Source of the DNA: Geitlerinema sp. PCC 7407
GTDB taxonomy: Bacteria > Cyanobacteriota > Cyanobacteriia > PCC-7407
DNA length: 64,000 bases
NCBI RefSeq assembly: GCF_000317045.1
Contig: NC_019703.1
Span: 3,026,501-3,090,500 of the forward strand
Direction of reading: 5' to 3'
A program made the position numbers and the translations under genes. The notes below the pieces were generated by a model. The model saw only the letters and a list, made by a program, of their open reading frames with translations, did no database searches and had not been told where the DNA came from. Below are positions 34,664 to 39,702 of this stretch, piece after piece (position 1 is the first letter of the stretch; the number at the start of each line of letters is the position of its first letter).

Positions 34664-35206
34664 TTAATTAGTGGTGAGGGGGCAGCCGTAGCGGGCAGCG
34701 AGGCCGTTGGGCATGGTGGCTCCGCACAGGACCGCACCCCGGAAGCTGACGCCGGTGAGGACGGCTCCCTGGAGGTTTGTCTGGCGCAGGTCGGCGCCGT
34801 CGAGGTTGGCATTGGTCAAGTTAGCGTCGCGCAGGTCGGCGCCCCGCAGGTCGGCTTCGATGAGGGAGGCTCCCAGCAGGTTGGCGTTGCGCAAGTCGGC
34901 GCCCCGCAGATTGCTCTGCTTGAGGTCGGCGTCGCCGAGGTTGGCTTCCCGAAGATTGGCAAGACCAAGGTCTGAGCCGCGCAGCTTGGCGCTGTAGAGG
35001 TTGCTTTTGGAGAGGTTGGCAGCCAGGAGCTTGACGCCGTTGAGCTGAAAATAGCGCAGGTCGGCTTTGCGCAGGTAGCACGCGAGGCAGGCGCGATCGC
35101 CCAAGAGACGCTGGCGGTTGGCTTCGGTGCGCTCAGCTTCCCCGGCGATCGCCGGTAGCGCCAGACCCAGCACCATCAGCCCCGTCAACCAAACGGCTGC
35201 TTTCAT
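34664..35206 (-). CDS. Exported pentapeptide-repeat protein
   Basis: 180 residues from ATG 35206 (MKAAVWLTGLMVLGLALPAIAG), a clear signal peptide with cleavage after AIA. Two Cys follow (ACLACYLRK). Then about 20 tandem A(D/N)Lxx repeats at residues 35-160 (ADLRY, ANLSK, SNLYS, ADLRG, ANLLG) should fold as a right-handed quadrilateral beta-helix. The C-terminus has two further Cys (VLCGAT, YGCPL). Many cyanobacterial pentapeptide proteins are lumenal or periplasmic, with unknown roles. The start overlaps the stop of the LOV-GGDEF-EAL gene by 4 nt (ATGA), so expression is coupled. Confidence 0.88.
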   Translation of the reverse strand: MKAAVWLTGLMVLGLALPAIAGEAERTEANRQRLLGDRACLACYLRKADLRYFQLNGVKLLAANLSKSNLYSAKLRGSDLGLANLREANLGDADLKQSNLRGADLRNANLLGASLIEADLRGADLRDANLTNANLDGADLRQTNLQGAVLTGVSFRGAVLCGATMPNGLAARYGCPLTTN

Positions 35207-38200
35207 AGACTTTGCACCATGCTCGTGTCGTGGGAAAAGAACGGCTGCCACGGTAGATTTCCCTGACCCCAGGCCCCAATCAACGCTTCGGCGTCAGCAG
35301 CGCTGAGCGGCCGCGAAAGGAGATAGCCCTGACCCAGCTCACAGCCCAGCGATCGCAGCTGGTGGAGCTGCGTCGGCGTCTCGATGCCCTCGGCCACCGA
35401 ATCCATGCGCAGGTTGTGCGCCAGGGTGACAATGGTGCGCACGATCTCCGCATCCTCGTCCCGGACGTCCATCCGGTTCACGAAGGAGCGATCGATCTTG
35501 AGGGTGTGGGCCGGAAAACGATGGAGCTGGCTCAACGAAGAATACCCCGTCCCAAAATCATCAATGCAGAAGCGCACCTCTCGGGCTTGCAGGGTTTGCA
35601 GAATCAGCACCGCTGCCTCTGCATTATCCATAATGGCGCTCTCGGTGATCTCCAGCTTCAGACTGCCAGGGGCTGGCTGAATCGAGTGCAGCACCCGATC
35701 GATTTGGGCAATCAGGTCAGGCTGGGAGAACTGCTTGACCGACAGGTTCACATTCATCGCCAGATTGTGGGCTTTGGGGAAGGCGCTCTGCCAGATCTTG
35801 AGCTGATGGCAGGCTTCCTCCAAGATCCACTGTCCCAGGGGAATGATCAGGCCGGTTTCTTCGGCCACCGGAATGAACTCGGCGGGCGAAATCCAGCCGT
35901 GCTCGGCATGGTGCCAGCGAACCAAGGCCTCGAACCCGGTCAGAGCGCCGGTTTGCAGCTCCACGATCGGCTGGTAGTGGACCACAAATTCCCGCCGCTC
36001 GAGGGCGCGCCGCAGGTCCATCTCGATGCGCATGAAGCGGACCGCCTGGGTGTGCATAACGGGGCTGAAGACCTCGTAGCGATTTTTGCCGAGGCCCTTG
36101 GCGTGGTACATGGCGGCGTCTGCGTTGCGCAGGAAGTGCTCCGGCTGATGGTAGCGCTCGCCCGCTTCGTCTCGGCTCAGGGCAATGCCGATGCTGGCAT
36201 TGATGTAGATCTCGTGGCCGCACACGTTGAAAGGCACGCGCAAGGCCCGGTGGATGCGTCCCGCCACGTGCTGCGCTTCGGCAGGGCTCTTGAGGTCTTC
36301 GAGCAAGATGGTGAACTCGTCCCCCCCCAAGCGGGCAAGGGTATCGCTGGGCCGCAGACGCTTTTGCAGACGGCGGGCGATCGCCACCAGCAGCTGATCG
36401 CCGACCAGGTGGCCCATGCTGTCGTTGACCATCTTGAAGCGATCGAGATCGAGGAACAGCACCGCAAACAGGTGATCCGGATAGCGGGTATCCTTGGCGG
36501 CTGACTGGCGCAGGCGATCCATAAACAGCGCCCGGTTGGGCAGCCCCGTCAGGGCATCGTGGAGGGCGTCGTGGCGGAGCTGCTCCTCCATGCGCTTGCG
36601 AGTGGTGATGTCTGAGGAGATGCCATCGACGCGCAGCGGCTCACCGTCGGCATCGTAGACCACGTGGCCGCGATCGCGCAGCCAGCGGATCTCGCCGTCG
36701 GGCCGAACCACCCGATATTCCACGTCATTGCTGCCCACCTGGCGCAGCAGGGCCGCCGCCTCCAAGACGCGATCGCGATCGTCCGAGTGGATAATTTGCA
36801 GCCACAGATCCGGATGCTGCAAAAACTCCGCAATCGGCCGGCCATAGATGCGCTCCGCCGCCGGATTCAGGTAAAGCACCTGCCGCGTTTGGGCATCCAC
36901 CGACCACACAATGTCTTCTAGGGAATTTAGGATGCTTTCGAGGCGCTCCTCGCTCTGGCGCAGCGCCTCCTCAGCCCGCTTGCGCTCCGTAATATCGTTT
37001 TGGATGCCCACAAAGTGGGTCAGATAGCCCTGGCGATCGAACACCGGCGCCACAAACAGCTCATTCCAGAAATCCACCCCATCCTTGCGCGTGTTGTGCA
37101 GCACAACGTGGCACTCGCGCTGCTCTCGAATCGCCCGCCGCAGCTCTTCCACCCCCGCCTGATCGCGGTCCGGCCCCTGCAAAAAGCGGCAGTTTTTCCC
37201 CAGCACATCCTCCCCGCTATAGCCCGTAATGCCCTCAAAAGCTGGGTTGACATAGATCACCGGGTTATCGGGCTGGGTTGGATCGGTGACCACAATGCCG
37301 TTACTGCTCGCCGCGATCACCCGCTCCATCAGGTGCAGACGGCTGTCGGCCTGCTTGCGATCGATCGCCGTCGCCAGCACATTGGCGATCGCCTGCAAAA
37401 AGTGCACATCATCTTCACTAAACTGCCGCAGATGACGGGCATAGACCCCCAAAACCCCAAAAGGCTGCCCCCCAGCCCCCGGAATCACCACGCTCATGCC
37501 GCTGATCACGCGGTGGTTGTGCAGCAGCTGAGAGCTGCTAAAGCGAGCATCGACCCGCAGATCCTCAAACACCACCGGGGTCGCAGACCGCAGCGTATGG
37601 CCCGCCTGGGAGCTGGGCTGCGCGCCAATCATCGCGCAGCCCACGATTCCAGACTGCCAGCCGACTCCCGCCGTCACCAAAAACGCATGGCTATTGGGCA
37701 TCAGCTCCAAAATCGTGCTGTAGGGGACCTCCAGGGTTTCAGCCACCCACGCCGCCGCCTCATCAAACAGCACCGCCAGATCGATCCCCTCCAGAGCCCG
37801 CTGCCCCAGCTTCGCGACGGTCGCCTGTTGGCGAGCGTGGGCCCGCAGGCTGTTCTCGGCCTGCTGGCGGTGGCTAACGTCGCGAATCATCAACTGAAAG
37901 GCCGGTCGGCCCTGATGAGTGGTCGCAATCCCGCTCATCTCGACCGCCAGCGACGTGCCGTCTAGACGGGTGATCGTCTCCTGGACAAATCCCTCAATGG
38001 CAATAAATTCAGGCATCACCCCCGACGCGTCACAGCCCAAATGGTGGCTTTGGGGCGACAAAAAATGAATGATGGGCTGACCCAGGAGATCCTCGGACGC
38101 CTTAGCGCCGAGCAGATGAGCCGCTGCCCCGTTCACGTAGGTCAGCCTGCCATTGCAGTGAACCGCAATGCCATCGGGAGAGAGCTCAACTAGGCTGCGG

Positions 38201-38913
38201 TAGCGCTCTTCGCTTTCCCGCAGAGCCCTCTCCGTAGCGCGAAAAGACCGAATGTCTCGCTGAATGGTCGCCATGCAAATCGGCGCACCCGTCGTACTGC
38301 TGCGAATCGTGAAGCAGCTCCGCTGTACAGGAATCAGCGCACCCGTTTTGAAATGCTTGAGGTGCCCTTCGCTCTCATGGCGACCCACAGTCGACAAAGT
38401 CGGCAGAATCACCTCTATGAAGTACTGAAATTCTTCAGTTGTAAAATACTCCGAGATATCCTTTGACAGAGCCTCAGCCAGGCTATCAAGCCCTAGCATT
38501 TCTCGACCCGCTGGGTTGATGTATAAAACTTGACCATCAGCAGAGGACATCGCGATGAAGTCGCTGCTGTGTTCAACCAGCGCAATGAATTTCTGCTGCT
38601 CTTCCAGCATGGTTTGAAATCCCTCTAAACCAGGGAAGCTTCCGGCATCCGCGTCTGTCCTGTCCGATCCGACGGGCGATCGCAGGCTAGCCGATCTCCC
38701 AGGGGAGTATTCATTGTCCGGGGGGATCAGCTCAGCCCAGGCAGAATCAGCTCCCGCAGCCAGCGGTGTCCTTCCCCGATACTGGTGAGTATAGTGAGTC
38801 TTATAATGCGAGCCGCGATCGCTTTTTCCCCAGTTATCCTGAGGCTCTGTCAGATCTGTTGACTTGACATCCAGGGGCAGATCTGGACAGCGAGAATGAT
38901 CATGGATAGTCAT
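35203..38913 (-). CDS. PAS-GAF-LOV-PAS-GGDEF-EAL c-di-GMP signalling protein
   Basis: 1236 residues from ATG 38913, with no TM helix. Domains: PAS about 105-225; PAS about 235-348; GAF about 365-515; LOV-type PAS about 530-645 with GKNCRFLQG (Cys575), NTRKDGVDFWNELF and FVGIQNDIT; PAS about 655-770; GGDEF about 780-950; EAL about 960-1215. The cyclase motif RLGGDEF and the product-inhibition site RPSD (854-857) are intact. The phosphodiesterase motifs EALVRW, NVNLSVKQ, EITES, IDDFGTGYSSL, KIDRSFV and EGIET are also intact. So it can in principle make and break c-di-GMP under blue light (inference). It is coupled to the exported pentapeptide gene. Confidence 0.93.
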   Translation of the reverse strand: MTIHDHSRCPDLPLDVKSTDLTEPQDNWGKSDRGSHYKTHYTHQYRGRTPLAAGADSAWAELIPPDNEYSPGRSASLRSPVGSDRTDADAGSFPGLEGFQTMLEEQQKFIALVEHSSDFIAMSSADGQVLYINPAGREMLGLDSLAEALSKDISEYFTTEEFQYFIEVILPTLSTVGRHESEGHLKHFKTGALIPVQRSCFTIRSSTTGAPICMATIQRDIRSFRATERALRESEERYRSLVELSPDGIAVHCNGRLTYVNGAAAHLLGAKASEDLLGQPIIHFLSPQSHHLGCDASGVMPEFIAIEGFVQETITRLDGTSLAVEMSGIATTHQGRPAFQLMIRDVSHRQQAENSLRAHARQQATVAKLGQRALEGIDLAVLFDEAAAWVAETLEVPYSTILELMPNSHAFLVTAGVGWQSGIVGCAMIGAQPSSQAGHTLRSATPVVFEDLRVDARFSSSQLLHNHRVISGMSVVIPGAGGQPFGVLGVYARHLRQFSEDDVHFLQAIANVLATAIDRKQADSRLHLMERVIAASSNGIVVTDPTQPDNPVIYVNPAFEGITGYSGEDVLGKNCRFLQGPDRDQAGVEELRRAIREQRECHVVLHNTRKDGVDFWNELFVAPVFDRQGYLTHFVGIQNDITERKRAEEALRQSEERLESILNSLEDIVWSVDAQTRQVLYLNPAAERIYGRPIAEFLQHPDLWLQIIHSDDRDRVLEAAALLRQVGSNDVEYRVVRPDGEIRWLRDRGHVVYDADGEPLRVDGISSDITTRKRMEEQLRHDALHDALTGLPNRALFMDRLRQSAAKDTRYPDHLFAVLFLDLDRFKMVNDSMGHLVGDQLLVAIARRLQKRLRPSDTLARLGGDEFTILLEDLKSPAEAQHVAGRIHRALRVPFNVCGHEIYINASIGIALSRDEAGERYHQPEHFLRNADAAMYHAKGLGKNRYEVFSPVMHTQAVRFMRIEMDLRRALERREFVVHYQPIVELQTGALTGFEALVRWHHAEHGWISPAEFIPVAEETGLIIPLGQWILEEACHQLKIWQSAFPKAHNLAMNVNLSVKQFSQPDLIAQIDRVLHSIQPAPGSLKLEITESAIMDNAEAAVLILQTLQAREVRFCIDDFGTGYSSLSQLHRFPAHTLKIDRSFVNRMDVRDEDAEIVRTIVTLAHNLRMDSVAEGIETPTQLHQLRSLGCELGQGYLLSRPLSAADAEALIGAWGQGNLPWQPFFSHDTSMVQSL

Positions 38914-39702
38914 TGCGGCCTGAGGTTTGAATAAGGTTTTCGTAACAGATATTTTGTGATGCCAAAGTTTTATTTGATTTCCCCTCGGGATCGCTATTAA
39001 ACGCCAGATTCATTGCCAAAGTAAAGCGAGAATTCACGAAATCTGTACGCTATAAAATCAGGCCTAGGGAAGATGCGATCGCGATAATTCCTGAGAAAAT
39101 ACCGAAATTTAGAGGCGGATTTTAATCCCTGGCAATTTCCGAACAACTAAGGCCTTGAATCCCCAACAAAAGGCTCAGCTACTAACAAAATCTGCCGCGA
39201 TCGAAGAATTTAAGTGGCTACTGTGTATCGATGCACACCATCCTATCGAATTTCTACAGCCGTCGCTGATAGAAAACCACACAAGCTTAACAAAAGCATG
39301 AAAAAATCTTGGTTTTTCGTATTTTCCATTCAAGAAATTTCATGAAAAATTTAAAAATCAGCCAAAATTTACGATTTTATTTCGCACAACTTTACGAAAG
39401 TTTATTTTCAATGACATATTTGCTGAGAATTGACAAAAAATTCGTGGCAAAAAATACTTGTTTTCAGCCAACGCGGTGAGCTGCTTAATGCTCTCGCAGC
39501 AGATTTTTTTTAGTGACGTATCAACGCCTCAGACCGTTGATTCTGACTCGCTTGGGCTACTGTTGCTCCTGACCCAGCAGACTTATTGCAGAGACAATTG
39601 TTAGGCATTGTCCCGCCACAGCCTGACTTTGCCGCCGAGATTCTAGAGCCCCTGAGCCAGGAAAAAGCCTGTTTAAGGATTGGGGCAAAGGCCCACCCGT
39701 AA
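38914..39702. other. AT-rich 789-bp intergenic region, no gene seen
   Basis: It lies upstream of the LOV-GGDEF-EAL gene and downstream of recG's stop. 39290-39450 is strikingly AT-rich with runs such as AAAAATTTAAAAATC. No open frame with protein-like residues was found. It should hold the promoter of the minus-strand gene at 38913. A small RNA cannot be excluded. Confidence 0.4.

Follow-up and report, generated by a model that had tools for sequence, protein, structure and literature searches.

The minus strand of the window, the 64,000-nucleotide stretch of the Geitlerinema sp. PCC 7407 genome that we analysed, encodes a LOV-GGDEF-EAL protein that we propose to be a blue-light-stimulated c-di-GMP phosphodiesterase (PDE) with conditional cyclase activity. 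We assign this reading, which draws on analogy to a cyanobacterial protein, SL2, a probability of about 0.6. Proteins of the LOV-GGDEF-EAL kind are already known, and one from a different cyanobacterium has been characterised in part; the window adds a well-formed new case. The following features of the window, with residues counted from the first ATG, are used throughout.

35203..38913, minus strand: LOV-GGDEF-EAL protein with the order PAS-PAS-GAF-LOV-PAS-GGDEF-EAL, proposed blue-light c-di-GMP phosphodiesterase/cyclase
38611..38913, minus strand: doubtful N-terminal stretch, residues 1-101, without a domain and without coding-type GC3
38208..38610, minus strand: PAS 1 region, approximately residues 102-235 (Pfam, PAS_9)
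37860..38208, minus strand: PAS 2 region, approximately residues 236-352 (Pfam, PAS_9)
37363..37782, minus strand: GAF domain, residues 378-517 (Pfam)
36991..37329, minus strand: LOV domain, residues 529-641 (Pfam, PDB sequence search, alignment, Foldseek)
37189..37191, minus strand: codon of Cys575, the expected flavin-adduct residue (motif position, alignment)
37090..37092, minus strand: codon of Thr608, aligned with a Tyr in 85 of 89 cyanobacterial LOV domains
36619..36876, minus strand: PAS 4, residues 680-765, between LOV and GGDEF (Pfam, AlphaFold2 model)
36079..36567, minus strand: GGDEF domain, residues 783-945 (Pfam, 158.8 bits)
35308..36018, minus strand: EAL domain, residues 966-1202 (Pfam, 254.3 bits)
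34664..35206, minus strand: pentapeptide-repeat protein of 180 residues, directly downstream, its own ATG overlapping the stop codon of the LOV gene (ATGA)

The frame is open on the minus strand from 38913 to 35203, giving up to 1236 residues from the first ATG, and the plus-strand frame beginning at 35203 is interrupted by stops. The initial annotation had given an open reading frame at 35203-38913 with its strand unstated; the coordinates hold and the strand is minus, but the start codon is doubtful. GC3 is 0.525 for residues 1-101, not above the GC of the second codon position (0.545), 0.585 for residues 102-235 or so (PAS 1), and 0.72-0.79 from residue 237 onward; coding-like GC by codon position starts at about residue 102 and is strong from residue 237. 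Because residues 1-101 lack coding-type GC3, Met102 (codon 38610-38608) is a likelier start than the first ATG, and the longer start is probably over-long. With a start at Met102, the LOV cysteine would be residue 474 instead of 575. The 789-bp gap between the LOV gene and the upstream recG (window 38914-39702) has a GC content of 0.417, compared with 0.588 for the whole window. A search of the whole window against Rfam returned two tRNAs only, with no RNA element beside the LOV gene or in the gap, and the matches in a promoter and terminator scan were not above the expectation from shuffled sequence.

Pfam recognised four PAS matches (LOV among them), GAF, GGDEF and EAL in the window protein, and the two N-terminal PAS regions were separately matched by PAS_9 in a profile search of the genome. 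No membrane segment was recognised in the protein, and a cyanobacteriochrome-type chromophore Cys was not found in the GAF domain by eye. The NCBIfam model NF053781, whose listed name is Tlr1612 family c-di-GMP phosphodiesterase, matched at 606.5 bits, below its curated cut-off of 1600 bits. An AlphaFold2 model of residues 520-1236 had a mean pLDDT of 89 and a pTM of 0.52; because of this pTM, the relative placement of the domains is not fixed by the model. With the same model, Foldseek found DosP (PAS-PAS-GGDEF-EAL) as the best whole-chain match, together with 5m3c, MorA, 8c05 and the LOV-PAS tandem of Brucella LOV-HK. DosP (PdeO) of E. coli shares the two PAS domains ahead of GGDEF-EAL but is a haem oxygen sensor without LOV, and Brucella LOV-HK shares the succession of LOV and PAS but has a histidine-kinase output. 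In LadC (8c05), a LOV-activated diguanylate cyclase, LOV governs GGDEF through a helical linker, as it would here; both EAL and a PAS domain between LOV and GGDEF are absent from it.

Alignments, profile searches and the structure model agree that the third PAS domain of the window protein is a LOV domain, as the initial annotation had claimed, and flavin binding and a photocycle are predicted for it. The motifs GKNCRFLQG (572-580), NTRKDG (607-612), FWNELF (615-620) and FVGIQNDIT (634-642) were located by computation, which also places the adduct-type cysteine at residue 575, as annotated. The roles of the conserved LOV residues in flavin binding are established for the family. We aligned the window protein and 88 further LOV frames from cyanobacteria, the frames themselves having been picked by the motif GxxNCR[FY]LQG. 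Asn574, Cys575, Arg576, Gln579, Asn607, Asn617 and Gln638 are all present, in columns kept in 85-89 of the 89 frames. The one clear departure inside the signature motifs is Thr608 in place of Tyr, so that the "full LOV signature" of the initial annotation stands for all highly conserved flavin-site residues but not for this position. In a PDB sequence search, the 130-residue LOV stretch matched LOV photoreceptors across nearly its full length (1e-40 to 1e-28), including 7r5n (1.1e-40), YtvA (2pr5, 5e-32), the LOV-activated cyclase 8c05 (8.6e-32), phototropin and aureochrome. The nearest other LOV-like PAS in the own genome (C1:3845214-3845531, in a frame of 799 residues) has lost the cysteine (GQTPRLLQG) and retains NYRRDG.

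The enzymatic half of the protein is well preserved. The GGDEF-EAL pair matched the solved tandem enzymes 5m3c (1.4e-113) and MorA (4rnh, 1.4e-108). Aligned to these, the GGDEF domain retains the substrate (guanine) and metal residues as well as the RxxD I-site, and all the catalytic motifs of the EAL domain were matched (EAL, NLS, EITES, DDFGTG, KID, AEGIE and QG). The computed positions are 854-857 for the I-site RPSD, 863-867 for GGDEF and 995-1000 for EALVRW. Pfam, the alignment and the motif positions thus bear out the annotated intactness of GGDEF, I-site and EAL. The protein is also bifunctional-looking by its motifs, as had been noted, but SL2 points to breakdown as the net light-driven activity.

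SL2 of Synechococcus elongatus PCC 7942 was reportedly described by Cao et al. in 2010. We take genome G030 in our set to be S. elongatus, and its frame L181 (937 residues), which reads REC-PAS-PAS-LOV-GGDEF-EAL from its sequence, to be the likely SL2. L181 and the window protein both have a cyanobacterial LOV domain with an adduct cysteine upstream of GGDEF-EAL in one chain, and the best blastp alignments between them cover LOV (53% identity) and PAS-GGDEF-EAL (40%). Their architectures differ: in L181 a receiver domain and two PAS domains precede LOV, which is directly joined to GGDEF, and the motifs are GRNCRILQG and NFRKDG, whereas the window protein has PAS-PAS-GAF ahead of LOV, a PAS domain between LOV and GGDEF, and NTRKDG. 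G030 has two further LOV frames. L182 has a LOV domain without the cysteine (NFRFLQG) and SSDEF, and L183 has GKSCRFLQG and a fused part without a recognisable GGDEF; L185 of another genome (G011) has the same LOV motif as L183 and nearly equal length, and its GGDEF and EAL motifs have decayed. SL2 is described as an FMN-binding protein in which the cysteine adduct forms and c-di-GMP breakdown is faster under blue light (PMC8846402, PMC7690835, PMC13001216), and PMC5812497 also gives an increase of PDE activity in blue light. Light-regulated synthesis was absent from truncated LOV-GGDEF constructs of LOV-GGDEF-EAL proteins (PMC10396304), suggesting EAL as the regulated output.

By analogy with SL2, the "blue-light switch of c-di-GMP" suggested in the initial annotation is a well-supported prediction, for which we envisage the following mechanism. 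The window protein would be a cytoplasmic, probably dimeric enzyme in which blue light causes Cys575 to form a covalent adduct with FMN bound by LOV. A flip of Gln638 would then alter the LOV beta-sheet, and the signal may be relayed through a helical linker to PAS 4 and its own linker and on to the GGDEF-EAL pair, 291 residues separating the Cys motif from GGDEF. EAL-driven breakdown would increase and c-di-GMP would fall in the light. The intact GGDEF domain could provide GTP-dependent allosteric control, or synthesise c-di-GMP while EAL is restrained, and PAS 1, PAS 2 and GAF would serve as further inputs. Our analysis shows the gene, its domain order and motifs, its membership of the LOV family and the predicted fold, whereas FMN binding, the photocycle, dimerisation, the sign of the light response and its physiological output are predictions. 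Since the protein that we take as SL2 lacks a PAS domain between LOV and GGDEF, the sign or strength of coupling may differ in the window protein. We count the unusual Thr608 against this explanation.

It is highly improbable that the third PAS is an ordinary PAS domain that is LOV-like by chance. The own genome does contain 96 PAS_9 matches; however, GxxNCR[FY]LQG, searched as a degenerate DNA pattern, occurs at a single site in its 4.68 Mb. Of 194 cyanobacterial genomes, 69 contain this pattern and 0 its reverse, and about 130 residues are alignable throughout with proven LOV domains. More conceivable, yet unlikely, is a LOV flavin with a chiefly redox or structural function, while the signals that drive the protein enter through PAS 1, PAS 2, GAF or PAS 4. 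Four additional sensor domains in the same chain, the non-canonical roles of Cys-less LOV-like domains such as that of RmcA, and the off-consensus Thr608 are consistent with such a role. Against it, Cys575 and every flavin-site residue are retained, whereas some LOV-like PAS domains, such as those at C1:3845214 (TPRLLQG) and in L182 (NFRFLQG), have lost the cysteine.

With GGDEF and the I-site intact, the protein might instead be a net diguanylate cyclase, LOV activating GGDEF in the light or switching the protein from PDE to cyclase, so that blue light would raise c-di-GMP, as is the case for Cph2 and SesA. The preserved substrate and metal residues agree with this, LOV-activated cyclases are known (8c05; PMC10396304), and SesA raises synthesis under blue light in Thermosynechococcus. 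We consider it rather unlikely, because the downstream EAL carries every catalytic motif, the nearest characterised kind, SL2, is a light-stimulated PDE, and the truncated LOV-GGDEF pieces mentioned above showed no light-driven synthesis. 

The start codon of the pentapeptide-repeat gene and the stop codon of the LOV gene overlap (CTATGAAAG), an arrangement typical of operons that suggests one here. The pentapeptide-repeat protein looks secreted, having a signal-peptide-like N-terminus by inspection, and contains a Cys-x-x-Cys stretch. Matches to it at E 1e-20 or better were found in 16 of 59 genomes. As a conserved neighbour, the gene was rejected: it lies directly downstream in none of the other LOV-GGDEF/EAL loci examined. 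A distinctly doubtful elaboration builds on the intact GGDEF, I-site and EAL: a true two-way light-gated switch, in which LOV, acting through PAS 4, would turn the protein from net synthesis in darkness to net breakdown under blue light, and the co-translated, secreted pentapeptide-repeat protein would belong to the output.

LOV-GGDEF-EAL proteins are common. By a simple motif search of the 88 LOV frames obtained with the exact pattern (L170 left out), 19 have both GGDEF and EAL motifs, approximately one fifth, and two have GGDEF alone; a published census put the share of bacterial LOV proteins that carry GGDEF or GGDEF with EAL at about 18% (PMC4844311). Five cyanobacterial LOV-PAS-GGDEF-EAL proteins (L116, L114, L087, L159 and L107) have a LOV-to-GGDEF spacing of 290-292 residues, compared with 291 in the window protein, and are 50-53% identical to it over the shared part, but they differ in the frame lengths ahead of LOV and have Tyr at the position of Thr608. 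A protein search of genome contigs for relatives gave six distant loci, with the LOV motif in the GGDEF-EAL frame in 0 of 6. A single origin of LOV-GGDEF-EAL was unsupported by a tree of 38 GGDEF-EAL parts (L181 left out), on which the LOV-PAS label changes 8 times, compared with 7.4 with shuffled labels, and the window protein is unplaced. The scatter of LOV-bearing proteins over this tree suggests frequent exchange of sensor parts.

The genome, a single contig of 4,681,111 bases, gave 23 GGDEF and 11 EAL matches in a profile search, indicating that the LOV-GGDEF-EAL protein is one part of a large c-di-GMP network. The same search gave no PilZ match, which suggests that the c-di-GMP effectors are not the usual ones or have diverged. 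Type IV pilus/type II secretion family ATPases are present, as is one ComFB-family protein. We rejected the latter as evidence for a c-di-GMP output because ComFB is reported, in the abstract of PMC12313861, as a c-di-AMP receptor. The genes beside the LOV gene gave no link to motility or biofilm, and the role in either that the initial annotation had proposed is a guess. If the light response is real, the window protein would offer a possible optogenetic part and would join SL2, from which it differs in build, as a second cyanobacterial case in which blue light controls c-di-GMP directly. The general picture, in which such proteins are widespread, would stay as it is.
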